This document shows positions 18,101-34,791 of a DNA stretch of 64,000 nt, piece after piece. The position numbers and the translations under genes are program-made. Under the pieces are notes generated by a model, which did no database searches, had not been told where the DNA came from, and saw only the letters and a program-made list of their open reading frames with translations. Numbering within the stretch: the first letter of the stretch is position 1; every line of letters begins with the position of its first letter. Source of the DNA: Chitinophaga sp. LS1 (GTDB lineage: Bacteria; Bacteroidota; Bacteroidia; Chitinophagales; Chitinophagaceae); contig NZ_CP128362.1 of assembly GCF_034274695.1 (NCBI RefSeq), forward strand, positions 3,350,501 through 3,414,500, read 5' to 3'.

Positions 18101-18589
18101 CACGTCGCTCAAACCGGTATTAATTGCGTAATACCCTGCATCATCCGTCTTCACACCTCTTGTGGTGTTTTTAATTATGACGGTCACACCGGGTAGTGGT
18201 GAACCATGCAAAGACAGCACTCTGCCACTGATTTCCTTTTGCAATGCAAGGGGGTTATGCAGCTGTATATTTTCTGGTACAGCGCTTACAATCACATTCT
18301 CACCTCTGAGTGTAAATTGAAAACCAGTCAATGCAGACAGCTGGTCCAGTGCCTGTGTAAGGGTAAGATTGTTACAATTGAAAGAAACGGGTTTATCCAC
18401 ATCAACGGTGGCTTTATCATAGTGGAAACTAATGTGTTGCCTGGTGGCAATGGCATCCATAATTTCCGTGACGGGTTTGTTGTGAAGTGAAATGCTGATC
18501 TGGGCAATAGCTTTCCTGCCTGGTAATAGTGATATTAACAGGAATATTACGACAATACATACTTTCATTAAGTATGATCTTCCCTTCAT
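15170..18589 (-). CDS. SusC family transporter with N-terminal STN signalling domain
   Basis: Domain order after the signal peptide (to about residue 29): an STN domain (SISLHNKPVTEIMDAIATRQ through LTGFQFTLRGENVIVSAVP), a carboxypeptidase-like regulatory domain (EISGRVLSLHGSPLPGVTV), LNELIVTALG, a plug (YIIDGVPM, DIESISVLKSASAAALYG) and a barrel ending HVKAAF. STN domains touch the periplasmic part of FecR-type anti-sigma factors, and FecR and an ECF sigma gene lie directly upstream, so this transporter is the likely sensor. I choose ATG at 18589 (1139 residues, GGGG seven bases upstream) rather than the TTG at 18625. The susD follows after 9 bases. Confidence 0.94.
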   Translation of the reverse strand: MKGRSYLMKVCIVVIFLLISLLPGRKAIAQISISLHNKPVTEIMDAIATRQHISFHYDKATVDVDKPVSFNCNNLTLTQALDQLSALTGFQFTLRGENVIVSAVPENIQLHNPLALQKEISGRVLSLHGSPLPGVTVIIKNTTRGVKTDDAGYYAINTGLSDVLIFRSVGYINREIMVPVATTTLDITLTENIKGLNELIVTALGIPKNNKELPYSTGLLNSDDISTVKDANVINNLSGRIAGVMINRSASGIGGSARVVLRGNKSTRENQPLYIIDGVPMANFTPSQPTDIWGESSGITGNGGRDGGDGISNLNPDDIESISVLKSASAAALYGSQAANGVIMITTKKGHSGKGHIEVSSDLTAEIPLLLPALQYRYAQTTPPYTDEKQAGSADSWGAPIHAKDHVKPFFNTGLTSMNGLSISGGIEKTQYYISYSNTMNRGIMPINRLQKHNFNMRVTSDLLGNKLHIDANISYLVQYAVNRPSSGLYFNPLTGLYTFPRGLDFNSYKEYQYFDNSRNMYMQNWWNINNSLGWTGQDDQQNPYWIQKRDEREDNRHRGLASLSARYRFNDWLSLQGRTNFDKSDDQYEMKAYAGTQQVLSPPNGRYTLEKESNKQFYADMMLTAARQVSPSWKLQGMLGASITDIRAHDRSLISTNATAAEGLIVANKFSVKNIASNALDAQQSVERKQLQALFGSAQVHFKNSIFLDLTGRNDWSSTFAFTPIKDKGYFYYSSGISTIISELVKLPAIISFAKVRLSYAKAGNDIAPYSSRPARFILQTTAGVSRVNFNTRTPYPGIYLKPEDNRSLEAGTEIRLLKDRISLDFTWYKNNNYQQYMEVRAPSGSGYLYYYLNLGNIQNKGVEATLTIVPVQHTNIRWSTTINCTVNCNRVKQLSSNTIPGAGPDNYYILTDFNTNMYGSFIKEGGSWGDIYTNKELYKNEKGQYVIDDQGNLVTRNVFKKVGNPNPRLITGWSNTLEYRHFTLSCLIDGRFGGEVMSVTSSVLDNYGVSERSAKARDNGGVALNAVYENGVPLTVPYDARKFFSTIGGRAGIGEMYMYDATNIRLRELSLTYEVPVKNKYINRLQIGLLGKNLCFFKLKAPFDPEVAMSSGNGLQGIDVFGVSATRSIGIHVKAAF

Positions 18590-18812
18590 TTCAGCCCCGG
18601 TGATTTTAACATAGTAAAGCAGCAATAAACATTTATGGGGCTACCCAAATACTACATGCAGGAATGCTCTGGGGAGCGAATTATAAAATAGCTGGGGGTC
18701 CTCCGTTTTACGGGAGGAACCTTTGTGATAGTACCAAAACGTGTTAGATGTTAAAGGGCCGTTACATGTGTATACGGCCACCTGATTGTAGTGCCGGGGC
18801 TAACCCCATAAA
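18590..18812 (-). promoter_or_regulatory. fecR-susC leader with three stem-loops
   Basis: The 223 bases between fecR and the STN susC contain three candidate hairpins. One pairs TCCTCCG near 18699 with CGGGAGGA near 18711. One pairs GGCCGT near 18756 with ACGGCC near 18773. A short GGGG/CCCC stem lies near 18797. None ends in a long T-run on the minus strand. The region probably holds the susC promoter or a transcript-processing or attenuation site that lets susCD be expressed far above fecR. The role is inferred. Confidence 0.4.
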
Positions 18813-19799
18813 TTATTTCTTATTTTTTAAAATTACAGTGTCGCGCGCTATCGACCAGGACAGTGATTCAGTCAGACAGATTGTTTCCAGCACATTTTGC
18901 AGGGTTTCCTGCCGGAAGCTACCGGTATAGGTCCATGCTTTTTTGTCGCTTTGGTTGATGACGGTTACGGCAAAGGTGTTTTCAATGGCATTGCGCACTT
19001 GTTCATACGAGGCATCTTTGAAGACCAGGGTACCTTGTTGCCATCCGGTGGCTTCCGGGGTGCTAAAGGTCGTTCTGGTCACTTTCAGGCTTTGCAGGTC
19101 ATAACTCAACTGTTCACTGGATTCAAGTACTACAGGCTTAGTGCCGGTGGCGGATACCTTTACTTTGCCACTTAGCAGGGCCACGGTGATTTTCTGTTCG
19201 TTGCGGTAAGCGCGTATATTGAAAGAGGTGCCCAGCGCTGTTGTACTGAGACCTCCGCTGTGTACGGTGAAATGGTGTGCGGGGTCGGGGGCTACGTCAA
19301 AGAAGGCTTCTCCGTCTTCGAGGTAGAGGTCGCGACTTTCGCTGAAGTGTATGGGATATCTGAGGCGGCTGCCGGCATTGAGCACGACGGTGCTGCCATC
19401 TTCCAGTTTCAGGTGTTCGGTTTTACCTTTTACGGTAGTGACGATATAGCATCCGTTGATAATTTCTTTATGGTTGTCAACTTTGGCCATAGCGGCATTG
19501 TCCGCAGGTATTGCGGAGCGGGTATAGTGCTGGAAAAACCAGCTGGCGGCAGCTACCAGCATAGTGATAGCGGCTGCGGCATAATACCACGGGCGCAATG
19601 AGCGCCGGCGGGGCACGTTGATATTTTTGTGCAGTGCAGCTTGTACATCTGCGAGGTCCTGCTGGATGACAGTTTCTGGAATGTGCGAAACAGGCTGTTG
19701 TATCCCTTCAAACCACTCTTCTATCAACTGTTTTTCCCCGGCTGTGGACTGTCCTTCGTTATAACGTTCCAGTATGTGCTTTATCTGATCAAGGTTCAC
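18813..19799 (-). CDS. FecR family anti-sigma factor (DUF4974 C-terminal)
   Basis: The 328-residue protein has a short cytoplasmic part (residues 1-70, HILERYNEGQSTAGEKQLIE), one membrane helix at about 71-89 (WYYAAAAITMLVAAASWFF), a periplasmic FecR domain (GKTEHLKLEDGSTVVLNAGS, GEAFFDVAPD, TALGTSFNIRAY) and a DUF4974 tail (FKDASYEQVRNAIENTFAV). It should hold the adjacent ECF sigma factor inactive until it receives a signal through the STN domain of the susC downstream. The start is GTG at 19799; the N-terminus matches relatives that begin MN.DQIK. It lies 97 bases after the sigma gene on the same strand. Confidence 0.93.
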   Translation of the reverse strand: MNLDQIKHILERYNEGQSTAGEKQLIEEWFEGIQQPVSHIPETVIQQDLADVQAALHKNINVPRRRSLRPWYYAAAAITMLVAAASWFFQHYTRSAIPADNAAMAKVDNHKEIINGCYIVTTVKGKTEHLKLEDGSTVVLNAGSRLRYPIHFSESRDLYLEDGEAFFDVAPDPAHHFTVHSGGLSTTALGTSFNIRAYRNEQKITVALLSGKVKVSATGTKPVVLESSEQLSYDLQSLKVTRTTFSTPEATGWQQGTLVFKDASYEQVRNAIENTFAVTVINQSDKKAWTYTGSFRQETLQNVLETICLTESLSWSIARDTVILKNKK

Positions 19800-19896
19800 A
19801 GCGTTGTAATTTAAAATAATGTCCTAATGTATCAATGTTTGTCCCTAACGTTAGTGATGCTCTTAATGGTGTCGTTTCAAGTTGCAACAAGTACCA

Positions 19897-20484
19897 TCAA
19901 TTGTAAAAAAAAGCAGCGGTCAGCAGCAGCAAAACGATGTCTGTCTGGGCATGGTTGGTACGCAGGATTTTTAATGCCTTGGTAATCTGGTTTTTAACCG
20001 TTTGCTGAGACAGTCCAAGGCGTATGGCTATCTGTTCCACCGTTTGGTGTTCTACCCTGCTCAGGATGAAGATCTCCTTCATTCGTTCAGGGAGTTGGTT
20101 GATGGTTTCAAACACATCTTCTGTACGTGTTTTGCTATCCAGTAGTTCTGTGATACTACCGGGTTGCACATCAAAGTGTTCGATGAGTTGTTGCAGGTAT
20201 TTGCGGTAAGTATTGTTCTTGCGGTAAATGTCTATGATCTTATGTCGGGCCGACTGGTAGAGGTACGATTTCAACGATTCGTTGACGCTCAGCGTGTGTC
20301 TTCTTTCCCAGAGGGAGGTAAAGAGTTCCTGTAATACATCCTTGCCTGCTTCGGCAGGTTCAATCTTGCTCAGGATATAGAGGTATAAGGGCTGGCTATA
20401 ACGTGCGTAGATAGCGTTGAAGGCCATTATGTTATCTTCCTGAAGCAATGAAAGTAATTGGGTGTCTGAGTAATTACTATACAT
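19897..20484 (-). CDS. ECF sigma-70 factor (FecI-like)
   Basis: The 195-residue protein has sigma region 2 (FNAIYARYSQPLYLYILSKI, DVLQELFTSLWERR, LYQSARHKIIDIYRK) and region 4 (LPERMKEIFILSRV, then the helix-turn-helix TVEQIAIRLGLSQQTVKNQI). It ends in a short hydrophobic tail, IVLLLLTAAFFYN, which is unusual and could touch the membrane. It heads the minus-strand order sigma, fecR, susC with STN, susD, a complete cell-surface signalling cassette. The ATG at 20484 is unambiguous. Likely targets are the third SusCD pair and possibly the second. Confidence 0.94.
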   Translation of the reverse strand: MYSNYSDTQLLSLLQEDNIMAFNAIYARYSQPLYLYILSKIEPAEAGKDVLQELFTSLWERRHTLSVNESLKSYLYQSARHKIIDIYRKNNTYRKYLQQLIEHFDVQPGSITELLDSKTRTEDVFETINQLPERMKEIFILSRVEHQTVEQIAIRLGLSQQTVKNQITKALKILRTNHAQTDIVLLLLTAAFFYN

Positions 20485-21947: not shown

Positions 21948-22979
21948 GTGAAAGGAATATCGATTAAAGATATCGCCCAGCAGGCCGGCGTTTCTCCAAC
22001 CACCGTTTCTTTCGTTCTCAATGGTAAAGGAAAAGAAAAAAGAATAAGCGAACAGGTAAGCAAACGTATTTTGAAGATTGCCGGCAAGCTAAAGTATAAA
22101 CCTAACCAACTGGCACGTGGTTTACGCACTGGTAAAACCAAAACAATCGGGTTAATCGTAGAAGACATTGCCAATAATTTCTTTGCCAACGTAGCGAAAG
22201 TAGTAGAAGACGAAGCCGACAAGTACGGCTACAAAGTACTCTTCGGCAGCACCGAAGACAATGAAGAAAAGGCCCGTGGCCTGTTGGAGGTGCTCCGATA
22301 CCGCCAGGTAGACGGGTATATCATTACGCCCACCCTCAACCTGGACAAGGACATTGCCTCCCTGGCAAAGCCCGTCGTACTCATGGACCGTTATTTTCCG
22401 AACGTCAAAGACTTGTCTTATGTGGTAGTAGACAACTTCCAGGGGGCTGTCACTGCGGTCGATCATCTGGTGGCAAAGGGCTATAAGCATATTGGAATCA
22501 TTACCACTACCTCGCACCAGATACAGATGCAACAGCGTTTGGAAGGCTTTACAGCTGCCCTGAAGAAACATGGCCTGCCATCGGGTAAGAATGTGATCAA
22601 ACGGCTGCCTTTTGACCTGGATAGGCCCGGGTATACTCAGGAGATCACCAAATACCTGCAGAACAACCGGGAACTGGATGCCGTGTTCTTTGCCACCAAC
22701 TACCTCGGTATTTGTGGTATAGAAAGCATTCGCTCCCTCGGATTGCAGATAGGTAGTGAGCTGGGTATGGTGAGTTTCGATGACCACGACATATTCCGTC
22801 TGCTAAGTCCGGCAGTAACCTGCGTAGCCCAGCCGGTAGAAGAGATAGGGAGAATGCTGATCAGGATCCTGATGGCGGAACTGGATGAAACAGCAGAAGG
22901 GCCGCAACAGGTAGTACTGCCACTGGAACTGAGAGAACGTGAATCGTCCATGCCGGATAAGCAGTTAACGAAGGCATGA
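21948..22979 (+). CDS. LacI family transcriptional regulator
   Basis: The 343-residue protein has an N-terminal LacI helix-turn-helix (SIKDIAQQAGVSPTTVSFVL, residues 5-24) and the hinge KYKPNQLARGL. A periplasmic-binding-protein-like effector domain follows (KTIGLIVEDIANNFFANVAK, GYIITPT, HIGIIT, GMVSFDDHDIFRLL). The start is GTG at 21948, and the frame is fixed by the conserved KGISIKDIAQQAG. It should bind a sugar or sugar phosphate. It precedes the fourth SusCD pair, but a terminator and a 732-base gap intervene, so it is transcribed separately and may regulate that pair. Confidence 0.93.
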   Translation: MKGISIKDIAQQAGVSPTTVSFVLNGKGKEKRISEQVSKRILKIAGKLKYKPNQLARGLRTGKTKTIGLIVEDIANNFFANVAKVVEDEADKYGYKVLFGSTEDNEEKARGLLEVLRYRQVDGYIITPTLNLDKDIASLAKPVVLMDRYFPNVKDLSYVVVDNFQGAVTAVDHLVAKGYKHIGIITTTSHQIQMQQRLEGFTAALKKHGLPSGKNVIKRLPFDLDRPGYTQEITKYLQNNRELDAVFFATNYLGICGIESIRSLGLQIGSELGMVSFDDHDIFRLLSPAVTCVAQPVEEIGRMLIRILMAELDETAEGPQQVVLPLELRERESSMPDKQLTKA

Positions 22980-23012
22980 TGTAATCGTTTACCTAATTTT
23001 TTTACATTTTAT

Positions 23013-23047
23013 AATCGCTTTTGCCGCAAGCAGAAGCGATTTTTTTA
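23013..23047 (+). terminator. Intrinsic terminator after lacI
   Basis: Arms AATCGCTTTTGC and GCAGAAGCGATT, with one G-T pair and loop CGCAA, are followed by seven T. It has the same CGCTT(T/C)TG core as the hairpins at 3263, 20609, 32143 and 36687. Confidence 0.9.
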
Positions 23048-23778
23048 GCCCTAAATATTACCGCCCATACAAATATAATTTGCTCATAATGAAAACTTTC
23101 TATAAGTTGCAAAAAATGACCTATGCCGGGAAACTGTGAAAATGCCTAGAACCCATAATCTGCTTTTTTATAACAGGAAATCATTATACCATGAAAAGAG
23201 CGAAATATCTTCTATCATCGCATTACGGATAAATTTCCATTATTAAATTTTCGTAAAGTCTTGGGGCATGAATGGAATTCATATTACGATTTCTTCAATT
23301 TGAGTGTATTTCTCCGATAGTATTTTCTCGTGGAGGTGTGCTAATTTACCGAAGTTAACAGATAATGAAAGATTCGATAAAAAAATGTTAAATCTTTTTT
23401 GTTTCTAAGAATTATTTGGGTAGTTTGGCGCTGTCAAGTAAAAGAATGTAGAGAAAAACTATGGCATTTTGGAAGAGTGGCTTGTACTGAGGGACAAAGC
23501 GGTGAAAATAACACCAGTTAAAGAAGAGAGTTAAAATGTCCTATACCGACAATAAAGTTAAATAAAACGTAAACGGTGACCACCGGAGTGTACTAAAAAA
23601 CGATTACAATTCCAGGTAAAGGTACCCAAGACTAAAAGAGAAAATAACATCACATTCAGGGAACAATAGGCTTGTAAGCTTCTTAAAAAAAGGAGCCGGT
23701 CTATGCCATGCGTATCTGTATGTAATTACACTTGTGACTAAACACTTATCATACTTAAAATCTAACTAAAAGAAAGCT
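23048..23778 (+). promoter_or_regulatory. Long AT-rich leader upstream of the fourth susC
   Basis: These 731 bases hold no plausible gene (the longest ATG frames I read are 9-13 codons). TTG at 23399-23401 followed 19 bases later by TAGTTTGG resembles a Bacteroidota promoter but lacks the exact TAnnTTTG spacing. If it is used, the 5' leader would exceed 330 bases. Small inverted repeats include CGGTG AC CACCG near 23572. The size suggests complex control of a highly expressed operon. Confidence 0.4.
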
Positions 23779-26700
23779 ATGCGAAGATCTCTATTAGTAA
23801 GCACACTGCTTCTTTTGTTCTGCTGCTTTACTGCTTTGGCACAGAACAAAAAAGTCGTGTCCGGGACTGTTAAAGATGACAAAGGACAGGCTCTTCCAGG
23901 AGTTACCATCCTGGAAAAGGGCACTAAGAACGGAGCAATGACTGCTCCGGATGGTTCCTTTAAAATCTCTGTTGCTCCTGAAGGAACTCTGGTTGTTTCC
24001 TTTTTAGGTTACGCTACTCAGGAAATTCCGGTAAGTGGCCAATCGACAATTAATGTTGCCCTTGCTACTGACAACAAAAATCTGGGCGAAGTGGTGGTAA
24101 CCGCGATGGGTATTAAAAGAGAAGCCCGTTCCCTGGGTTACTCTGTAAGTACTGTAAGCGCAAAAGACATCTCTCAAACTGGTTCTCCTAGTTTCGCTTC
24201 TGCCCTGTACGGTAAAGCTGCCGGTGTAAAGGTAGTTGCTGCTCCAGGTGGTGCCAGCTCTGGTGTATCTATCCAGGTGAGAGGTATCACCTCTGTATCT
24301 GGTAACTCTCAGCCACTGTATGTTGTGGATGGTGTGCCTATCAGAAACATGGCTGATCCTACCAAATCAAGCTTCAACACTACTAACAACCGTATCGATG
24401 GTAACGGTGCACTGGATATCAACCCTGAAGATATCGAGAGCCTGACTGTACTGAAAGGTGCTTCTGCATCTGCACTGTATGGTTCTGAAGCTACCAACGG
24501 TGTAGTTGTAATCACTACCAAGAAAGGTACCAAATCAAGAGGTATAGGTGTTGATCTGAACTATATTTACACTGCTGAGATGCTGCAGAACAGCCCTGAC
24601 TATCAGAACGAATATGGTCCTGGTTATGCAGAAGCTTACAACTTATCTTCCGGTGCAAATGCTGAAGGTTGGATTACTGACACTGATGGTTCTCTTCGTC
24701 CTTTCTACAGAGCGTATGAGTCTTTCGGTCCTAAATTCGATGGCAGAAGTGTTAAATATTGGGATGGTTCTACCCGTCCATATTCAGCGAACAAGAATAA
24801 CTATAAGGATTTCTTCCAGACTGGTTACAACTCTCAGTTCAACGCTGCTGTTGCTAACGCAAACGAATTTGCTTCTTACCGTTTCTCTTATACCCGTACG
24901 GATTATAAAGCTATCACCCCAGGATCTAACCTGAACAAGAATAACTTTAACCTGAACGCTACGCTGAAACTGCACAAGAAAGTAACTTTAGACATCATTT
25001 CTACTTTCAATAACAACTACACTCATAACCGTCCTACTACGCTGAGCGATGTATTGAATTCTTACGGTGGTTTCTTCAGCCGTATGGATGATATGAATAC
25101 ATACTTCAACAAGTACCAGACTTCTCATGGTTATAAGTATGTAACCTCTACTAACTCCAGCTACGATCAGAGCGAGAAACTGCTTTATCCGATCAGAGCT
25201 ACTCAGCTGATGGACTATATGTGGACACAGCTGAAAAACGACTACGATGAAAACCAAAACCGTTTCATCAACAGCGTAACTTTAAACTATTCTATACTGG
25301 ATAATCTGAAGTTCCGTGGTCGTATTGGTAATGACTACACTGGCTGGAAAGCTGAAAATAAAGAACATAATACCCAGCCTACTTATGTAGGTACCAGTGG
25401 TAAATATGGTATCGAACAGAGAACAAACAGCCTCCTGTACGGAGATGCGTTGTTGACTTACAATTCTAAGATTGGTAAGAACTGGGATCTGGGTGTATCC
25501 GGTGGTTTCACTGCCAGAAAACAAAACTTCCAGTATCAGCAGAGCACTACCACTGTAGGTTTGGCCAGTGAAAACTGGTTCTCTCTGAACAACTCTGCAG
25601 GTACTCTGTATACAGTATCTAATCGTGGTGAGCAGATCGACGTTGCTGGTTTCGGTATCCTTAACGTAAGCTACAAAGGTTGGTTATACCTCGAAGCAAC
25701 AGGTCGTTCTGAAAGGACTTCTACCCTGGCTCCAGGCAGAAATAGCTATACTTACCCTTCTGCAAACGCAGGTTTCGTATTCTCTGATGTAATCAAATTA
25801 CCATCCTGGTGGAACTACGGTAAACTGAGAGCTTCTTACGGTTTAACCGGTAACCACCCAACCCTGTTCGTAGCACCAGTTGCTTACAGCCAGTATGGTG
25901 TTTCCCTGAATGGTCAATACCTGGTATATCAACAAGCTCAGGGTAGCAGCTTCGGTAACGATAAGCTGGAATCTGAGCAGAAGAGAGAGTTTGAATTTGG
26001 TCTGGAAACAAGAATCATTGGCGGTAAAGTTGGTGTAGATCTGACTTACTACAATAACAAAGTAAAGCAACAGATCCTTGAGATCACTACTCCTCAGACA
26101 GCAGGTGCTACTTCCCAGTACATCAACGCTGGTGACCTGGCAAACTTCGGTTTTGAAGGTGCAATCAACGCCACTCCGGTTCAAACTAAAGACTTCCGTT
26201 GGGATACCCGTCTGAACGTTGCAGTGAACCGTAACAAACTGGTTAGCCTGCCTTCTACATTACCTAACATCACTAACGATCTGGAAAGTGGTTATGTAAT
26301 CGCAAGATCAGAAGTAGGTGATCCCCTGGGTAACATCTACGTTCACCCACACAACATGGATGCAAACGGTAACTACAAAGTAGACGGTAACGGTCTGTAT
26401 ACTTACAATACCGATGCTTACATCAAGGTTGGTAACATGATGCCTAAGGTTGTAGGAGGTTTCTCAAACACTTTCTCTTACAAAGCATTCTCACTGGATG
26501 TGACCCTGGATTACCGTTTAGGTGGTAAACTGGTATCCATTCCTTCTTACTATGCAGTTGGTGCTGGTATGTACAAGAGCACTCTCAAATATAGAGATGC
26601 AGCTCATGGCGGTATTGGTTATAATGTGGTTGGTGATGAAAGCAGCTTTCCTCCTAATTATGTGGCAACTGCCGTTGGTGAAACCGCAACCCGTTACAAT

Positions 26701-27075
26701 GGTCTGATCCTGGATGGTGTCACTGATGATAACGGTACTAAAAATACAAAAGTAACTTCCGCTGGTATCTATTATGATGCACAGTACGGATGGCATTCTG
26801 GTGACTACTCTCAGGCAGTATTCAACAACAGCTATATCAAAGTGCGTGAAGTTGCACTGACTTACAACATGCCTAAGAGCATCATTAACAAATTACATTT
26901 CCAGGGTCTGCAGGTAGCACTGATCGGCCGTAACCTGTTCTACGTTTACAAATCCCTGCCTTATGGCCTGGATCCGGAAGTTGCAACTGGCTCACGCTGG
27001 ATTGATCAGGGTATGAACAGTGGTGGTATGGCTCCTACAAGAAGCCTTGGTGCTAGCGTTCGTGCTCGCTTCTAA
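23779..27075 (+). CDS. SusC/RagA family TonB-dependent transporter, fourth pair
   Basis: The 1098-residue protein has a signal peptide (to about residue 21, TALAQ) and a carboxypeptidase-like regulatory domain (VVSGTVKDDKGQALPGVTIL). GEVVVTAMGIKREARSLGYS and a plug with YVVDGVPI and DIESLTVLKGASASALYG follow, and the barrel ends SVRARF. It has no STN domain. The codon choice is very even (GGT, CTG, AAC, TAC, CGT), stronger than in the other SusC genes here, which suggests a very abundant outer-membrane protein. The susD follows after 37 bases. LacI and AraC genes upstream are candidate regulators. The substrate is unknown. Confidence 0.95.
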   Translation: MRRSLLVSTLLLLFCCFTALAQNKKVVSGTVKDDKGQALPGVTILEKGTKNGAMTAPDGSFKISVAPEGTLVVSFLGYATQEIPVSGQSTINVALATDNKNLGEVVVTAMGIKREARSLGYSVSTVSAKDISQTGSPSFASALYGKAAGVKVVAAPGGASSGVSIQVRGITSVSGNSQPLYVVDGVPIRNMADPTKSSFNTTNNRIDGNGALDINPEDIESLTVLKGASASALYGSEATNGVVVITTKKGTKSRGIGVDLNYIYTAEMLQNSPDYQNEYGPGYAEAYNLSSGANAEGWITDTDGSLRPFYRAYESFGPKFDGRSVKYWDGSTRPYSANKNNYKDFFQTGYNSQFNAAVANANEFASYRFSYTRTDYKAITPGSNLNKNNFNLNATLKLHKKVTLDIISTFNNNYTHNRPTTLSDVLNSYGGFFSRMDDMNTYFNKYQTSHGYKYVTSTNSSYDQSEKLLYPIRATQLMDYMWTQLKNDYDENQNRFINSVTLNYSILDNLKFRGRIGNDYTGWKAENKEHNTQPTYVGTSGKYGIEQRTNSLLYGDALLTYNSKIGKNWDLGVSGGFTARKQNFQYQQSTTTVGLASENWFSLNNSAGTLYTVSNRGEQIDVAGFGILNVSYKGWLYLEATGRSERTSTLAPGRNSYTYPSANAGFVFSDVIKLPSWWNYGKLRASYGLTGNHPTLFVAPVAYSQYGVSLNGQYLVYQQAQGSSFGNDKLESEQKREFEFGLETRIIGGKVGVDLTYYNNKVKQQILEITTPQTAGATSQYINAGDLANFGFEGAINATPVQTKDFRWDTRLNVAVNRNKLVSLPSTLPNITNDLESGYVIARSEVGDPLGNIYVHPHNMDANGNYKVDGNGLYTYNTDAYIKVGNMMPKVVGGFSNTFSYKAFSLDVTLDYRLGGKLVSIPSYYAVGAGMYKSTLKYRDAAHGGIGYNVVGDESSFPPNYVATAVGETATRYNGLILDGVTDDNGTKNTKVTSAGIYYDAQYGWHSGDYSQAVFNNSYIKVREVALTYNMPKSIINKLHFQGLQVALIGRNLFYVYKSLPYGLDPEVATGSRWIDQGMNSGGMAPTRSLGASVRARF

Positions 27076-27112
27076 TGTATTTATTTGCTCAATGACGAAA
27101 CAAAGAAAACTA

Positions 27113-28687
27113 ATGAAAAAACTTCTTATAAACGCAGCTCTTCTGGTCTTACTGGCAGGTTCTTTTAGCTCCTGTAAGAAAAAGATCGATGAAGACTACC
27201 AAAACCCGGAACTGACTACCTCAGGTAACATAGGTAAGCTGTTTGCCGGTATGTTCTTCAACAAAAGAATTCACCCTTCATACTGGGATTATTATACTAT
27301 TCTTCAGTCTTATAGCGGTGCTTTCTCTGGTATCGTTCCTGCTGTACAAAGCAGTACCATGTATGTAACTACCTCCAGCTATACTGATGGTAAATGGACT
27401 GACTTCTATAACGGTTCTACCGGTACTGACTATAACTATAATGGTCCTGGTATCCTTAACAACTATCGTGAGATGCAGTCTACTTACAATGCACTGTCTG
27501 CAACTGACCAGGCAGCACAGGATATTTACATGAACCTGGCTAAGGTAATTGTAGCAGATCAGGCAGCTCAGATGGTTGACATGTGGGGCGATATTCCTTT
27601 TTCAAAGGCAAACTCCCTGAACACTTCTACCCGTGCTATCGAGTATGCTGCATATGACGATGCTGCTGCACTTTACGATACACTGATCAATAACCTGGAT
27701 CAGGTGAATACCTTCCTGACTACTGCATCTGTAGTAGCTACAGAAAGCGGTAACCTGAAACTGTATGACAGAATTTACAGCGGTGACCTCACCCTGTGGC
27801 GTCGTTATGCAAACTCTCTGCGTCTGCGTCTTCTGATGCGTATTTCTAATGTAAGCGAAGCTAAAGCACAGGCAGCAGTTACTACTATGCTGAACAATCC
27901 CAGCACTTATCCGCTGATCACAACAAACGATCAGGATGCATTATTGTGGGAAAGCCCAACCAACCTGGTTAGTGACCTGTTGAGTGCATTCTCCAGCTTC
28001 CCTTACGCTCCTCAGTATCTGCTGGAAGATGTATTGGTTGCTAACAATGACCCTCGTACCAAAGTAATGTTCGATCCGGATTCTACTAATGGTTACAAAG
28101 GTTTCCCTTACAATGGAACTTCTAACGATTTTTCCAATGGTGGGTATGCATCTTACGATTCTGCTACCTTCTTCTATAACTACAACCTGCCAGGTGTACT
28201 GTTCACAGCTGCTGAAGCTAGCTTCCTGCAAGCTGAAGCTTACGAAAGATGGGGCCTGGGTACTGCAGCTACTGCATACACAGAAGGTCTCGATCTGTCT
28301 GTTGAATACTTCTACATGCTGAACAAAAAAGTTAGCGACCGTTCTACCCAGTACAAATGGGCTATACAGGTTGTAAATACTGATACTGTAGCACTGTGGA
28401 AAGCAGCTAGCGCTGTTGCTTACAGTGGTACTACTACTGAAAAACTGGAGAAAATCTATACTCAGAAATGGGTGAACTTCTTCATCATGCAGGCAAACCA
28501 GGCATGGGCTGAATACAGAAGAACAGGTTATCCTGCTATTCAACTGCCAGTTTCAAACGGTATTCAGGCTAATCCTCCTGTACGTTTCCTGTATCCTTCA
28601 AACGAGTCACTGTATAACACTGCTAACTACAGCGCTGTACAGTCTAAGGATACCCGCAACACTAAAATCTTCTGGGACGTTAACTAA
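27113..28687 (+). CDS. SusD/RagB family lipoprotein (SusD-like_2), fourth pair
   Basis: The 524-residue lipoprotein has its lipobox cysteine at residue 21 (AGSFSSC) followed by KKKIDEDYQNPE. Family landmarks are AQMVDMWGDIPFSKANSLNT, LWRRYANSLRLRLLMRISNV and EKIYTQKWVNFFIMQANQAW. The open frame reaches back into susC. I place the start at ATG 27113, directly before the signal peptide; ATG 27092 would add MTKQRKL and cannot be excluded. It shares the strong codon bias of its susC partner and is closed by a strong terminator. Confidence 0.93.
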   Translation: MKKLLINAALLVLLAGSFSSCKKKIDEDYQNPELTTSGNIGKLFAGMFFNKRIHPSYWDYYTILQSYSGAFSGIVPAVQSSTMYVTTSSYTDGKWTDFYNGSTGTDYNYNGPGILNNYREMQSTYNALSATDQAAQDIYMNLAKVIVADQAAQMVDMWGDIPFSKANSLNTSTRAIEYAAYDDAAALYDTLINNLDQVNTFLTTASVVATESGNLKLYDRIYSGDLTLWRRYANSLRLRLLMRISNVSEAKAQAAVTTMLNNPSTYPLITTNDQDALLWESPTNLVSDLLSAFSSFPYAPQYLLEDVLVANNDPRTKVMFDPDSTNGYKGFPYNGTSNDFSNGGYASYDSATFFYNYNLPGVLFTAAEASFLQAEAYERWGLGTAATAYTEGLDLSVEYFYMLNKKVSDRSTQYKWAIQVVNTDTVALWKAASAVAYSGTTTEKLEKIYTQKWVNFFIMQANQAWAEYRRTGYPAIQLPVSNGIQANPPVRFLYPSNESLYNTANYSAVQSKDTRNTKIFWDVN

Positions 28688-28708
28688 TAACGTTTAGATA
28701 ATTTATAG

Positions 28709-28746
28709 AAAAGGCCCCGGCATAAATGCCGGGGCCTTTTGTTTTT
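28709..28746 (+). terminator. Intrinsic terminator of the fourth susCD operon
   Basis: Arms AAAAGGCCCCGGCA and TGCCGGGGCCTTTT enclose a TAAA loop and are followed by GTTTTT. The stem is very stable, as expected after a heavily transcribed operon. Confidence 0.93.
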
Positions 28747-28767
28747 AACTAAAAAGTCAAAATATTA

Positions 28768-28775
28768 TACATTTG
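28768..28775 (+). promoter_or_regulatory. -7 element (TACATTTG) of the cytochrome-monooxygenase cluster
   Basis: TACATTTG matches the Bacteroidota -7 consensus TAnnTTTG exactly. It lies 31 bases before the ATG at 28807, which implies a short leader. No TTG sits at the expected -33 distance, so support is partial. Confidence 0.45.
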
Positions 28776-28806
28776 AGAAAAAATTATCTATTTTAGGTAA
28801 TTAAGT

Positions 28807-30102
28807 ATGAAACGCCTATTCCTATTCCTTTTGATTGTACTGTCATTTGCTGCCAGCGCGCAGCGCATTACCTGGTACCAGCATATCGCACCCATTGTTC
28901 ATACTAACTGCACACCCTGTCATCGCCCGGAAGAAGCCGGCCCTTTTTCTCTTATCTCTTACGAAGATGTAGCCAAGCGCGCCGCGATGGTGAAGAAAGT
29001 AACACAAAGCAGGTACATGCCACCCTGGAAAGCAGATCCACATTATGTAAGCTATGCCAATGAACGCCGCCTCACCGACGAAGAAATTGCCATGATCGCT
29101 GACTGGGCAGATCACCAGATGCCAATAGGGAAAAATGATAATCGCAAACCAGACACTATTACTTTTTCCAAAGTCTCGCGCCTGCCAGATCTTGAGCTTA
29201 CCATGAAACAAGCCTTCGTAGTCAAAGGAGATAATGTGGAACGTTTCATTGTTTATAAGATCCCATTTGAACTACCTGACTCTATGAATGTGGAAGCCAT
29301 CCGCTTCATCACAAACAACCGCAAACTGATCCACCACGCGAATTATGAAATTGATGATGTGCCCGAGCTGGATCTATACAACACTGTTGATTACATCAAC
29401 CTCACGGAAGATGATCGTAATAAATATACACAGTACGTACCCTACCGCAAGCGCATGATCTATTACGGAGGCTGGATTCCAGGCGCCTTGTATGAATCGT
29501 ATCCTTCCGGTATCGGCTGGCGGATGCCCAGGAGAGGAGTGATCCTGCTCACCCTGCACTTTGCCCCTGTAGGTAAGGAAGAGAAAAGCATCAGCGGGGT
29601 ACAGTTATACTTCACAAAGAATGAAGTAAAGAGAGACATTCGTGCTGTGAGCATCGGCTCCGGTGGTGTAGGAGAGAAGGATATTGATCCGTTCTTTTAT
29701 ATCCCTGCCAATGCAGTGAAGACATTCAAGGTGAAAGTAAAAGTGCCCGAAGATCAGTCATTGCTATACGTTTGGCCACATATGCACTACCTGGGAAAGA
29801 TCTTCAGGGCATATAGTGTAACGCCTGCAAATGATACGATACGCTTAGTGTCTATTCCTGACTGGAATGTAGCATGGCAGGAAATGTACTGGTTCCCTAC
29901 ATTGAAGAAACTACCGAAAGGATCTACTATTTATGTAGAAGGGACGTATGATAACACTGCTGAAAACCCCGCTAATCCGAATAATCCTCCTCAACTCATT
30001 TATAGTAGTGGCGATATGAAATCGACTGATGAGATGATGACGCTGGTGATGATTTATTTGCCTTATGAAAAGGGGGATGAGAAGATGGAAATTAAGCGAT
30101 AG
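28807..30102 (+). CDS. Cytochrome c-fused, PHM-like copper monooxygenase (first copy)
   Basis: This 431-residue exported protein has a signal peptide to about residue 18 (AASAQ). A mono-haem cytochrome c domain follows, with CTPCH at 35-39 and a probable distal ligand Met71 in RYMPPW. The rest resembles copper type II ascorbate-dependent monooxygenases (peptidylglycine hydroxylating and dopamine beta-monooxygenases). All six copper ligands have candidates: His176-His177 and His251 for the first copper, His325 and His327 (WPHMH) and Met410 (TDEMMTL) for the second. The haem domain could replace ascorbate as electron source; that is inference. The substrate is unknown. A second copy and a thioredoxin-like gene follow. 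The family link is from motif reading. Confidence 0.75.
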   Translation: MKRLFLFLLIVLSFAASAQRITWYQHIAPIVHTNCTPCHRPEEAGPFSLISYEDVAKRAAMVKKVTQSRYMPPWKADPHYVSYANERRLTDEEIAMIADWADHQMPIGKNDNRKPDTITFSKVSRLPDLELTMKQAFVVKGDNVERFIVYKIPFELPDSMNVEAIRFITNNRKLIHHANYEIDDVPELDLYNTVDYINLTEDDRNKYTQYVPYRKRMIYYGGWIPGALYESYPSGIGWRMPRRGVILLTLHFAPVGKEEKSISGVQLYFTKNEVKRDIRAVSIGSGGVGEKDIDPFFYIPANAVKTFKVKVKVPEDQSLLYVWPHMHYLGKIFRAYSVTPANDTIRLVSIPDWNVAWQEMYWFPTLKKLPKGSTIYVEGTYDNTAENPANPNNPPQLIYSSGDMKSTDEMMTLVMIYLPYEKGDEKMEIKR

Positions 30103-30128
30103 TCCTGCGGGTTTTTCGCAAGCCCGCT

Positions 30129-30144
30129 GCAGGTGAAAACCTGC
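30129..30144 (+). other. Perfect small hairpin with GAAA loop
   Basis: GCAGGT GAAA ACCTGC lies 27 bases after the first monooxygenase stop. A GNRA tetraloop on a six-pair stem is stable, but no T-run follows, so it is more likely an mRNA stability or processing element than a terminator. Confidence 0.35.
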
Positions 30145-30234
30145 CGTTAGGCATATTTAAAACCGCAATGACATATATCACTGAAATAAATAATAGATAT
30201 AATGTAATTTACCACTGTCAACCAACGAGTCGTT

Positions 30235-30789
30235 ATGTCAAGACTACTACTCCTGTCATTGCTAATAACTATGCAGTCGATAGGGCATCCACATGGTACT
30301 TCCTTTACTGAGCGATTAAAGGATTATACAGGCAAAGCTTATGACATCAGGCCACAGGGAAAGATTGTTGTGTATCTGTTTCTCTCACCTGAATGTCCAT
30401 TGTGCAGAAACTATGCACCTATCGTACAACAGCTGTCAGAAAAATACAAAGGCGTACAATTCTACGGCATCATCAGTGGCCGCACCTTTACCAAAGGGCA
30501 GATCGGCGCTTATGTAAAAGATTTCAATCTCACCTTCCCCGTCCTCATAGATACGGATAAGGAAGTTGCCAATTCACTGAAAGCAACTGTCACGCCCGAA
30601 GCGCTGCTGGTAGGAAGTGATGGCAAAGAATATTATCGTGGTTTGATAGATGACTGGATCACAGGTCTTGGTACCAAGCGTGCAAAAACTACGCAGCTAT
30701 ACCTGGATCAGTCTATCCAGAATCTGGTGGCAGGTGTGCCCACTGTTACAAAGACCACACCGATAGGTTGTCTGATCAGTAATTATTAA
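30235..30789 (+). CDS. Thioredoxin-fold (TlpA/redoxin-like) exported protein
   Basis: The 184-residue protein has an N-terminal hydrophobic signal, then a redoxin domain (KIVVYLFLSPECPLCRNYAP, FPVLIDTDKEVANSL, VTPEALLVGSDGKEYYRGLI). The active pair is Cys54-Pro-Leu-Cys57, and the cis-proline is in VTPEA. A further cysteine lies near the C-terminus in TPIGCLISNY. It lies between two cytochrome c-copper monooxygenase genes and ends only 3 bases before the second. Likely roles are cysteine reduction for haem attachment, copper delivery or supply of electrons. From memory, Acidobacteria and Planctomycetes have proteins with a similar redoxin fused ahead of a cytochrome c-monooxygenase, which supports a joint function. 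Confidence 0.8.
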   Translation: MSRLLLLSLLITMQSIGHPHGTSFTERLKDYTGKAYDIRPQGKIVVYLFLSPECPLCRNYAPIVQQLSEKYKGVQFYGIISGRTFTKGQIGAYVKDFNLTFPVLIDTDKEVANSLKATVTPEALLVGSDGKEYYRGLIDDWITGLGTKRAKTTQLYLDQSIQNLVAGVPTVTKTTPIGCLISNY

Positions 30790-30792
30790 AGT

Positions 30793-32094
30793 ATGCGTGT
30801 TGTCGTTGCGATAACCCTGATGTTATCGTTATTTATTTGCGGAAAGGGGAGGGCACAGGATATCACCTGGTATAAACACATTGCGCCCATCATTCACAAC
30901 AATTGTACACCTTGTCACAGAACAGGCGAGGCAGCGCCTTTTCCCCTTGTTACATATGAGGATGTAGCAAAACGTGCTTCCATGATTCAACGGGTTACGG
31001 AAGCGAGGTATATGCCACCCTGGAAACCAGATTCGCACTATGTACAATATGCGAATGAAAGACGATTGTCTGATGAAGAGATTTCCATGATCGCCAACTG
31101 GGCTACTCATGATATGCCTAAAGGCAATGCGGGGGATGCAAAAGACAAACAGAACTTTGTGCCCGGTACCGTATACAATCGTCCACCTGATCTGGTGTTG
31201 AAGATGAAGGAGAGTTATCGCCTGGAAGGGGATAACCAAGACCATTACATCGTATACAAAATACCTTTTGAGCTGGCAGATTCTATGAATGTGGAAGGAG
31301 TAGAATTCATCACCAATAACCGTAAGGTGATCCATCATGCAAACTATGAGATAGATGATGTACCAGGCATGGATATATATAATACAGCGGACTTTGTGGA
31401 TTATACCAATGAAAAGGTAAAGTACTTCGAAAACTATGTATCCTATCGTAAGCGGATCATGTACTTTGGTGGCTGGATACCGGGTGCTTCTATGGAGTCT
31501 TATCCGGAACATATTGGTTGGGTAATGCCAAAGAGAGGGGTGATATTACTGACAGTGCATTATGCACCGTTAGGCAAAGCAGAAGATGTGCTTAGTGGTA
31601 TACAGATCTGGACGACAAAATCAAATATTACCAGGCGGATCAAAAACGAGAGCCTGGGATCTGGTAGTGAGTCGCAAAAACAGATACAGCCTTTCTTTTA
31701 TCTGCCTCCTGATGTAGTGCGTACTTTTTCGTTGGATGTAAAGATAGAGGAGGATAGGTCATTGCTGTATGTATGGCCGCATATGCATTTGCTTGGGCAG
31801 GTGTTTAAAGCCTATGCCATCAAGCCAGACAAAGACACGATCCCGTTAGTATATATACCTGTGTGGGATTTTAACTGGCAGGAGATCTATTGGTTTCCAA
31901 AGATGGTGAAGATTCCGAAAGGATCGACTATTCACATAGAAGCCACTTATGATAACACGATCAATAATCCTTACAATCCAAACTTGCCACCAGCATTGGT
32001 CATGGAAAATATGAACACAAAGGATGAGATGATGACATTGGTAATAGTAACGCTTCCTTATAAAGACGGCGACGAAAATATCTCTTTGAAATAA
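30793..32094 (+). CDS. Cytochrome c-fused, PHM-like copper monooxygenase (second copy)
   Basis: This 433-residue paralogue of the gene at 28807 has the same layout: signal peptide, haem site CTPCH at 38-42, distal RYMPPW, then the copper domain. Candidate copper ligands are His181-His182, His256, His330 and His332 (WPHMH) and Met413 (KDEMMTL). Keeping every ligand in both copies argues that both are active. The loops between ligands differ, which suggests different substrates or a hetero-oligomer. The start ATG lies 3 bases after the thioredoxin-like stop, so they are one operon. A bidirectional terminator separates it from mutS. Confidence 0.75.
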   Translation: MRVVVAITLMLSLFICGKGRAQDITWYKHIAPIIHNNCTPCHRTGEAAPFPLVTYEDVAKRASMIQRVTEARYMPPWKPDSHYVQYANERRLSDEEISMIANWATHDMPKGNAGDAKDKQNFVPGTVYNRPPDLVLKMKESYRLEGDNQDHYIVYKIPFELADSMNVEGVEFITNNRKVIHHANYEIDDVPGMDIYNTADFVDYTNEKVKYFENYVSYRKRIMYFGGWIPGASMESYPEHIGWVMPKRGVILLTVHYAPLGKAEDVLSGIQIWTTKSNITRRIKNESLGSGSESQKQIQPFFYLPPDVVRTFSLDVKIEEDRSLLYVWPHMHLLGQVFKAYAIKPDKDTIPLVYIPVWDFNWQEIYWFPKMVKIPKGSTIHIEATYDNTINNPYNPNLPPALVMENMNTKDEMMTLVIVTLPYKDGDENISLK

Positions 32095-32142
32095 AGCCGA
32101 AAACAACTCTTTAATAATAAAGCCGGCCGCAGGCCAAGACCT

Positions 32143-32180
32143 AAAAAAAACGCTTTTACCGAAGGTAAAAGCGTTTTTTT
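32143..32180. terminator. Bidirectional terminator between monooxygenase cluster and mutS
   Basis: Arms AAAAAAACGCTTTTACC and GGTAAAAGCGTTTTTTT, with loop GAA, give T-runs on both strands and lie between convergent genes. It belongs to the CGCTTTT-core hairpin set. Confidence 0.93.
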
Positions 32181-32184
32181 GCGC

Positions 32185-34791
32185 CTACAGCAAATGTTTT
32201 ATCTCGCTTAACTTCAGCAACGCCTCCACCGGCGTCAGCCTGTTAATATCCACATTCTCCAACATATCTCTTATCGTCTTGAACGTATCACTATGCGTAT
32301 CAAAAATACTCAATTGCACCTTCTGTGCAGGTCCGCCCAAACTCTTCACCTGCTCCTGCACTGGCCCATCAATCTGCTTCTCCTCCAAATGCGCTAATAC
32401 CTCATTCGCTCTTTCAATCAACTTAGGCGGCATTCCCGCCATTCTTGCCACATGAATACCAAAGCTATGTCTGCTACCCCCCGGCGCCAGCTTCCTCAAA
32501 AATATCACCTTATTCCCCGATTCCTTATTCGTAATGTGAAAATTCTTGATGCGCGCATGCTTATTCTCCAACTCATTCAGCTCGTGATAGTGTGTGGCAA
32601 ACAACGTCTTTGGTTTAGCCGATGTCATATCATGCAGATACTCCACAATACTCCATGCAATTGAAATACCATCATACGTACTGGTACCACGCCCGATCTC
32701 ATCCAGTATCACCAGACTACGCGGTGTAATATTGTTAATAATACTCGCCGTTTCATTCATCTCTACCATGAAAGTAGACTCACCACCACTCAGGTTATCC
32801 GAAGCGCCCACACGTGTAAAGATCTTATCTGTCAATCCGATCTCCGCCGCTGCTGCAGGTACAAAACTACCCATATGCGCCATCAGCGTAATCAATGCCG
32901 TCTGCCGTAACAATGCAGACTTACCACTCATGTTCGGACCCGTCAGAATAATAATCTGCTGGGTCTCTTTATCCAGCGTGATATCATTCGCTACATAACT
33001 CTCACCCGGTGGCAATCCTCTTTCAATCACAGGATGTCGTCCTTCACGAATATCAAGATTGTAACCATCCGTAATACCCGGACGACGATATTTAAACTGT
33101 ACCGCATTGTTCGCAAAACTCAGCAGACAATCCAGCTTCGCTATCACCTGTGCATTCTGTTGTATCGGCCGGATATAAGGTTGCAATGCAGACAATAGTT
33201 CTTCGAACAACTCTGCTTCCAGTGCGAGGATCTTTTCTTCCGCCCCCGTAATCTTCTCTTCGTATTCCTTCAGCTCAGGTGTAATATATCGTTCTGCATT
33301 CGCCAGCGTTTGCTTACGGATCCAGGTTTCAGGTACTTTATTCTTATGTGCATTCGTCACTTCCAGGTAGTAGCCGAATACGTTGTTGAATGCAATCTTC
33401 AGACTAGGGATGCCCGTGATTTCAGATTCCTTCTGTTGGATCTGTAACAGGTAATCTTTTCCGGAGCGTGCAATCTTACGCAGGTTATCCAGTTCGGTAT
33501 GAATACCCATCTGTATCACTTCGCCTTTGCTCACGAGGATCGGTGGTGTCTCCGTTACTTCGCGCAGAATTCTGTCCAGGATTTCGTTACATCCATCCAT
33601 GGTCATGGCCAGTTTTGCCAGGTATGGATGTGGTACTTTTTCCAGCAGGGTCTTCACGGCACATACCTGTTGCAGTGCTTTGGCGAGGGACATCACCTCT
33701 CTTGGGTTGATCTTCTTCAAAGGGATCTTGGACACCAGTCTTTCCAGGTCACCGGTTTGTTTCAGGTGGTGGACCAGGTTTTTTGCAAGATCTGTTTCTT
33801 TGATAAAGTACTCTACCACATCCAGTCTTTCATTGATCTGGTTAATATCGCGGAGGGGGAATATGAGCCAGCGTTTCAGCAGGCGGGCGCCCATTGGGCT
33901 TACAGTAGTATCAATGGTGGTGAGCAGGGTATTCCCGTTTTCCACACTGCTACCTAACAATTCCAGGTTACGGATCGTAAACCTGTCCATCCAGAGGAAG
34001 TCATCCTGTTCGATGCGCTGAATGTTAGTAATGTGTTGCAGGTGAGGATGTTCGGTATCCCGCAGGTAATGCAGGGCAGCGCCTGCGGCAATGATGGCAT
34101 CATTGAGACCATCTACTCCAAAGCCTTTCAGACTATGTGTCTCAAACTGCCTGAGGAGTATTTCATGTGCATAAGTGGCAGTAAAGATCCACTCATCCAT
34201 GGTGTATGTGTAAAACTTAGTGCCAAAGTGCTGGCGGAAATTCTTTTGTTGTTGCTTGGCGTAGAGTACTTCAGCAGGTTTAAAGCTTTGCAGCAGTTTA
34301 TCGGCATACTCGATGGTGCCCTGTGCAACAAAGAATTCCCCTGTGGAGATATCCAGAAACGCAACGCCGGCATGATCATCCTGGAGGTGTACAGCTGCCA
34401 GAAAGTTGTTGTTGGCATTTTCGAGGATCTTGTCATTCACAGCAACTCCGGGCGTCACCATTTCGGTTACGCCGCGTTTTACAATACCTTTTACAGTTTT
34501 GGGATCTTCCAGCTGATCGCATACGGCCACGCGGTAGCCTGCTTTGACCAGTTTGTGGAGGTAGGTGTCCAGAGAGTGGTGTGGAAAACCAGCTAAGTCT
34601 ACATAAGAGGCAGAGCCGTTAGCTCTTTTGGTCAGAACAATCCCCAATACTTTGGAGGCAATGACTGCGTCTTCATTAAAAGTTTCATAAAAATCGCCCA
34701 CGCGGAACAAAAGCACGGCATCCGGGTAACGGGTCTTAATTGCCTTGTGCTGTTGCATTAGTGGGGTTTCTTCCGATTTGCTTTTCGCCAT
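32185..34791 (-). CDS. mutS: DNA mismatch repair protein MutS
   Basis: The 868-residue ATPase recognises mispaired bases and small loops and recruits MutL. The N-terminal mismatch-reading motif is Phe34-Tyr-Glu36 in GDFYETF. Connector, lever and clamp regions follow, then the ATPase with Walker A GPNMSGKS at 618-625, the STFMVEM signature, Walker B VILDEIGRGTST and the ATHYHEL switch. The C-terminal helix-hairpin region ends in LLKLSEIKHLL. The open frame extends to TTG 34827; I use ATG 34791 (MAKSKSEETPLMQQ), which fits the family. It diverges from the TrmH-type gene across 54 bases. Full length, no sign of damage. Confidence 0.97.
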   Translation of the reverse strand: MAKSKSEETPLMQQHKAIKTRYPDAVLLFRVGDFYETFNEDAVIASKVLGIVLTKRANGSASYVDLAGFPHHSLDTYLHKLVKAGYRVAVCDQLEDPKTVKGIVKRGVTEMVTPGVAVNDKILENANNNFLAAVHLQDDHAGVAFLDISTGEFFVAQGTIEYADKLLQSFKPAEVLYAKQQQKNFRQHFGTKFYTYTMDEWIFTATYAHEILLRQFETHSLKGFGVDGLNDAIIAAGAALHYLRDTEHPHLQHITNIQRIEQDDFLWMDRFTIRNLELLGSSVENGNTLLTTIDTTVSPMGARLLKRWLIFPLRDINQINERLDVVEYFIKETDLAKNLVHHLKQTGDLERLVSKIPLKKINPREVMSLAKALQQVCAVKTLLEKVPHPYLAKLAMTMDGCNEILDRILREVTETPPILVSKGEVIQMGIHTELDNLRKIARSGKDYLLQIQQKESEITGIPSLKIAFNNVFGYYLEVTNAHKNKVPETWIRKQTLANAERYITPELKEYEEKITGAEEKILALEAELFEELLSALQPYIRPIQQNAQVIAKLDCLLSFANNAVQFKYRRPGITDGYNLDIREGRHPVIERGLPPGESYVANDITLDKETQQIIILTGPNMSGKSALLRQTALITLMAHMGSFVPAAAAEIGLTDKIFTRVGASDNLSGGESTFMVEMNETASIINNITPRSLVILDEIGRGTSTYDGISIAWSIVEYLHDMTSAKPKTLFATHYHELNELENKHARIKNFHITNKESGNKVIFLRKLAPGGSRHSFGIHVARMAGMPPKLIERANEVLAHLEEKQIDGPVQEQVKSLGGPAQKVQLSIFDTHSDTFKTIRDMLENVDINRLTPVEALLKLSEIKHLL

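Follow-up and report, generated by a model that had tools for sequence, protein, structure and literature searches.

How would electrons reach the copper pair of a PHM/DBM-like protein that appears to carry its own haem? Two genes in a 64,000-nucleotide stretch of Chitinophaga sp. LS1 (contig NZ_CP128362.1, positions 3,350,501 to 3,414,500; this whole stretch is the window, and positions count from its first letter) raise this question. Each of these twins joins a mono-haem motif region to a PHM/DBM-like core, and between them lies a gene for a thioredoxin-fold protein, here called RDX. The two coppers of PHM and DBM lie far apart; how electrons reach them, and whether a closing movement of the protein brings them together, has long been argued over. 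The family is known mainly from animals, where it serves in the production of peptide hormones and noradrenaline. We propose that the twins are probably exported dicopper monooxygenases of the PHM/DBM kind, fed with electrons by their own haem, served by a dedicated RDX and acting on a substrate linked to an adjacent SusC/SusD pair. A natural enzyme of this kind, with a coloured covalent haem by the same copper pair, would make each electron step trackable by absorbance; it would also extend the family into a widespread bacterial branch whose partner and genomic surroundings are undescribed, and those surroundings offer a way towards finding the substrate. Among the open-licence papers listed by literature searches, none was seen to describe a cytochrome c-PHM fusion, which is weak evidence of absence.

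Haem motif, candidate copper ligands and predicted fold of the twin proteins

An earlier reading made from the sequence alone placed this feature at 28807-32094, and the three open reading frames (ORFs) listed here confirm it. Fractions of 84 are counts in an alignment of 84 family proteins (A2), and the signal peptides are a reading of the N-termini by eye.

28807-30102, + strand: twin 1, ORF of 431 amino acids with signal-peptide-like start, mono-haem motif region and PHM/DBM-like core
28909-28923, + strand: haem motif CTPCH of twin 1, residues 35-39 (C, C and H columns 83/84)
29017-29019, + strand: proposed axial Met71 of twin 1 (Met column 84/84)
29332-29337 and 29557-29559, + strand: candidate copper ligands H176/H177 and H251 of twin 1 (84/84)
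29779-29787 and 30034-30036, + strand: candidate copper ligands H325/H327 and M410 of twin 1 (84/84)
30235-30789, + strand: RDX (thioredoxin-fold, TTHA0593-like), ORF of 184 amino acids with signal-peptide-like start
30394-30396, + strand: C54 of RDX
30769-30771, + strand: C179 of RDX
30793-32094, + strand: twin 2, ORF of 433 amino acids with signal-peptide-like start, mono-haem motif region and PHM/DBM-like core
30904-30918, + strand: haem motif CTPCH of twin 2, residues 38-42 (C38, C41 and H42 each 83/84)
31012-31014, + strand: proposed axial Met74 of twin 2 (84/84)
31333-31338 and 31558-31560, + strand: candidate copper ligands H181/H182 and H256 of twin 2 (84/84)
31780-31788 and 32029-32031, + strand: candidate copper ligands H330/H332 and M413 of twin 2 (84/84)

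Only 3 bases separate the RDX stop codon from the start of twin 2. A2 comprises both twins, the third copy in the source genome and 81 proteins from 75 of 79 named loci, which derive from the best 80 of 574 confirmed stretches (592 candidates); ranking was by whole-protein similarity and so biases the set towards haem-bearing relatives. Pairwise identity has a median of 41% and a minimum of 28%. The ligands proposed earlier (H176/177, H251, H325/327 and M410; H181/182, H256, H330/332 and M413) are all correctly numbered. At the sequence level, the CuH set (the HH pair and a third His) and the CuM set (HxH and Met) are each complete in 84/84 proteins; HH, VHY and HxH line up with human DBH, and the Met lies beyond the aligned range. 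Among the 13 His of twin 2, only H42, 181, 182, 256, 330 and 332 are kept in 83-84/84, the other seven being retained in ≤41/84 each, and among its 18 Met, M74 and M413 alone reach 84/84 (next, M331 with 75). Judged by this alignment, the six-ligand pattern is far beyond chance. The features of a c-type cytochrome, CxxCH and a distal ligand, occur in 83/84 proteins for the motif and 84/84 for Met74, which would be the distal axial ligand; the single CxxCH exception (L109) has a gene call that begins downstream of the motif. Four loci omitted from A2 by gene-call or length filters (L067, L089, L105 and L111) have the six-ligand signature in 4/4 and CxxCH in 3/4, the one without being L089, which is cut at a contig end.

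A structure model of twin 2 (pLDDT 81.7, pTM 0.76) matches the PHM/DBM double jelly-roll core in both Foldseek and VIA-align, with VIA-align Z of 16-23 for PHM and DBH; the predicted fold is PHM-like, and the proposal of the sequence-only reading, a PHM/DBM-like copper core fused to a haem, is supported. Profile comparison links the family sequences to human DBH, and in a 14-member set (A1) Cu2_monoox_C was found in 12/14 and Cu2_monooxygen in 6/14 at E ≤0.01. A PDB search with the single sequence of each twin gave nothing meaningful.

Distribution and paralogues

The association of haem motif and core was also recovered by an independent method. The Pfam model Cu2_monoox_C, which is blind to haem, matched 35 of 395 Bacteroidota genomes (32 above cut-off), and loci were built and inspected for 30 of the 35. 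The six-ligand signature is present in 30/30 of these loci, and CxxCH or CX4CH lies upstream and in frame with the core in 28/30; of the two exceptions, L152 sits at a contig end, and L144, which has no haem motif, is the only clear one. Many of the 30 genes also appear in the twin 2 search, so that the method is independent and the proteins are partly shared. In this Bacteroidota sample, the PHM domain usually occurs fused to a haem region. A second cytochrome-PHM group was seen in Bacteroidota, with CX4CH (CATSGCH and variants; L125, L130, L131, L136, L137, L143, L145 and L148) or CANCH (L139, L140 and L149) as haem motif, and SHxH replacing PHMH at CuM.

Twin 2 itself has matches at E 0.001 in 32/395 Bacteroidota genomes, 5 of them over the cytochrome part alone, and the copper enzyme is encoded in 38/79 genomes of the genus. 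Searches of plasmid records (tblastn with twin 2) and of viral contigs recovered no relative at the limits used. The source genome has three copies; the third (L003) follows a CPLC redoxin and ORFs that resemble SusC and SusD in size and position. Both twins fall inside one 13-row clade of the tree (support 100/100). Twin 2 groups there with the distal copies from other Chitinophaga-type genomes, in a starred set of six rows (100/99), and twin 1 sits beside redoxin-linked copies (92/90, unstarred). This sequence tree points to an old duplication retained in several species. Copies in metagenome-assembled genomes labelled Chitinophaga pinensis (L091 and L092) branch far from those of the isolate so labelled (L041); the cause may be unreliable labelling or the presence of other paralogues.

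Proposed electron route, RDX and competing explanations

In the proposed mechanism, each twin would be exported and fold as a double jelly-roll, with CuH held by HH and a third His and CuM by HxH and Met, and the fused N-terminal cytochrome c domain would carry a covalent haem. This haem most likely takes single electrons from a donor in the periplasm or at the cell surface and hands them on to the two coppers, replacing free ascorbate. A C-H bond in a substrate of the neighbouring SusC/SusD pair would then be hydroxylated with O2. RDX would serve the copper enzyme specifically through C54 and C179, in haem-attachment reduction, copper delivery or peroxide removal.

Several observations weigh against this proposal. 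As a protein, twin 2 scores 22.9 bits with the Cu2 Pfam model against a cut-off of 23 (24.7 bits in the genome search), and twin 1 has no Cu2 Pfam match up to E 1 (13.1 bits in the genome search). Cytochrome Pfam matches are below cut-off in both twins, and the cytochrome region of twin 2 is hardly covered by structural matches. A 307-amino-acid PHM-domain protein, L144 (886-1809), has the six ligands and a lipoprotein-like start with no haem motif, so the fold does not depend on a haem. In 17/79 loci, four of which are truncated at a contig end, no RDX lies within 1.5 kb; it is therefore not strictly required. The PHM positions that hold the peptide C-terminus (R240, N316 and Y318) are replaced in the motif-aligned family, with R in 0/84, N in 6/84 and Y in 5/84, and W, T, V and similar residues in the twins; these replacements make peptidylglycine an unlikely substrate.

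The haem might instead be a sensor, docking module or store beside a PHM-type core whose copper is reduced by a small reductant. L144 fits this explanation, as does DBH, which also has a domain ahead of its core (DOMON; first to last aligned residues in VIA-align are 36-424 in the model and 48-498 in DBH), but retention of a haem motif in 83/84 close relatives and 28/30 Pfam-scan loci, including the CX4CH subfamily, makes it unlikely. Electrons could also flow in reverse: the copper core would oxidize a substrate and the haem would deliver the electrons to respiration, as happens in cytochrome-linked dehydrogenases. Cytochrome c domains of this kind are often electron exits, and weak profile matches were obtained to hydrazine synthase alpha (E 0.073) and a one-haem cytochrome c (E 0.62); against this, all six PHM ligands are invariant, including the CuM Met, which is tied to O2 chemistry in PHM, and we consider reverse flow quite improbable. 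We regard it as most improbable of all that the core is a PNGase F-type double jelly-roll that processes glycans and has its His/Met pattern incidentally. PMC8812541 groups PHM with PNGase F in a double jelly-roll class, with a common fold and Pfam clan, and calls PHM widespread in eukaryotes. Fucosidase, GH35, GH125, GH18 and GH3 genes do lie close to some relatives, but VIA-align Z is only about 8 for PNGase F, the ligands are invariant, and Pfam and DBH sequence matches point elsewhere. Membership of the twins in the PNGase F group was set aside as unlikely, given the lower Z and the conserved candidate copper ligands.

RDX shows a whole-length fold match to TTHA0593-like proteins together with an N-terminal Cys and a C-terminal GC-x-I; its structural relatives 2cvb, 2ywo, 2ywi and 3u5r are of the TTHA0593 type. 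The next best folds belong to DsbF- and ResA-like thiol oxidoreductases, which are secreted. CPLC, reported in the sequence-only reading, is present in the RDX of the window, but the second Cys is missing in 19/59 relatives (proteins of 140-260 amino acids), and a conserved CxxC as in ResA/CcmG is thus not a family feature. Genus-wide scoring of ≤42 candidates per genome gave an RDX match in 37/38 genomes with the copper enzyme and 0/41 without, and all 44 strong matches adjoin the copper enzyme (42 on the same strand). RDX is about as likely to scavenge peroxide or chaperone copper as to help mature the haem, and either role is compatible with an electron-feeding haem. Its DsbF/ResA-kind next best folds argue for haem maturation, as does the haem CxxCH being the sole Cys pair in the mature twins. 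A role as disulphide isomerase of the twin core was ruled out, because the mature twins hold no Cys besides the haem motif; 50/84 family members have no Cys after residue 120.

Compared with rat PHM (1sdw, 6ala), the twins differ by the N-terminal haem c region, by the lack of core Cys where PHM has disulphides, and by replacement of the peptide-binding R240, N316 and Y318 in most or all rows of the family. In human DBH (4zel), the N-terminal position of the haem c region is taken by the DOMON domain. PNGase F (1pnf) shares the overall double jelly-roll, and RDX differs from TTHA0593-type proteins by its signal-peptide-like start and its tie to the copper enzyme. Cbp2D/Cbp2E and cellobiose dehydrogenase belong to the cytochrome-assisted systems of lytic polysaccharide monooxygenases (LPMOs). 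These systems, found in polysaccharide degraders, resemble the twins in that redox proteins probably feed a copper monooxygenase; they have a separate donor protein and mononuclear copper, whereas the twins have a fused haem region and a predicted copper pair.

Genomic setting and substrate hints

The twins and RDX are part of a larger unit that starts at SusC/SusD (23779-28687), and mutS lies downstream of twin 2 on the opposite strand.

21948-22979, + strand: LacI-family regulator gene upstream of the locus (Pfam LacI and Peripla_BP_3)
23779-27075, + strand: SusC/RagA-type TonB-linked outer membrane protein (TIGR04056, E 1.2e-175)
27110-28687, + strand: SusD-like lipoprotein (Pfam SusD-like_2, E 9.3e-62); the start at 27110 is our choice, the ORF list having 27020
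28709-28740, + strand: terminator-like hairpin in the SusD/twin 1 gap, 14 pairs (9 G-C) and a T-rich tail

The hairpin came first on the list of a consensus scan that found 12 against 6.7 expected in shuffles. A sigma-70 promoter scan gave no excess (19 versus a shuffle mean of 20.7); Bacteroidota promoters differ in type. Rfam returned nothing at gathering score over 22900-32400.

Across the 79 loci, a frequent gene order is regulator, SusC, SusD, redoxin, copper enzyme, an FG-GAP/ASPIC protein (~1,120 amino acids), a PAP2-fold protein and a fucosidase. Clusters found anywhere in the fetched stretch, named from one example checked per cluster, include redoxin (59 loci), SusC (56), SusD (54), FG-GAP/ASPIC (25), ROK regulator (24), PAP2 (21) and GH29 (18); the LacI regulator cluster is shared with 8/79. 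A Pfam check of the GH29 cluster matched 5/5 members. Thirteen hand-picked copper-enzyme genomes (7 of the 32 Bacteroidota and 6 of the 38 of the genus) gave a fucosidase background of 107 matches in ~76 Mb, or 0.03 per 21-kb stretch; its presence near the copper enzyme in 18/79 loci is ~7x expectation, a figure overstated by the interrelatedness of the loci. Relatives also have single GH35, GH125 and GH18 genes nearby, and five loci hold a GH3 cluster (one checked); other neighbours tested are housekeeping genes (RNA polymerase beta and RsmF). No glycosidase lies beside the twin locus of the window itself. A GH29 alpha-L-fucosidase (49610-50953, minus strand), one of 11 in the genome, was observed ~18 kb from the twins.

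The GH35, GH125, GH18 and GH3 neighbours of relatives hint at glycoprotein glycans. More speculatively, and with rather low confidence, the haem-dicopper enzyme could be an oxidative arm of outer-membrane loci that take up glycans or glycoconjugates, adding to the oxidative chemistries of LPMOs and P450 demethylases. In the boldest form of this idea, covered by the same low confidence, the anomeric carbon by the amide of an N-glycan would be hydroxylated and the carbinolamide would collapse, freeing the sugar oxidatively; GH29 in 18/79 loci, GH35/GH125/GH18 and the PNGase F fold point that way and prove nothing. A type IX sorting tail occurs in 5/14 A1 members, and at least these five therefore probably act outside the cell; a domain search of the twin proteins found no such tail in either.

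All 21 loci with a PAP2 protein (for example, L044:14728-16038) also have FG-GAP/ASPIC. K-x6-RP, xSGH and SRxxxxxH, the pattern of the vanadate site of haloperoxidases, are present in 20/20 intact PAP2 copies, and the 3' fragment of one that is split has them too; these loci are possibly copper, haem and vanadium oxidation clusters. The ASPIC match of the source genome, in a 1,118-amino-acid frame (G000:C1:8511600-8511800) that equals the FG-GAP/ASPIC protein of the loci in size, is far from all three copper-enzyme copies. The window also contains a second TonB receptor locus at 15170-20484 on the opposite strand, with genes that read as FecR- and ECF-sigma-like.
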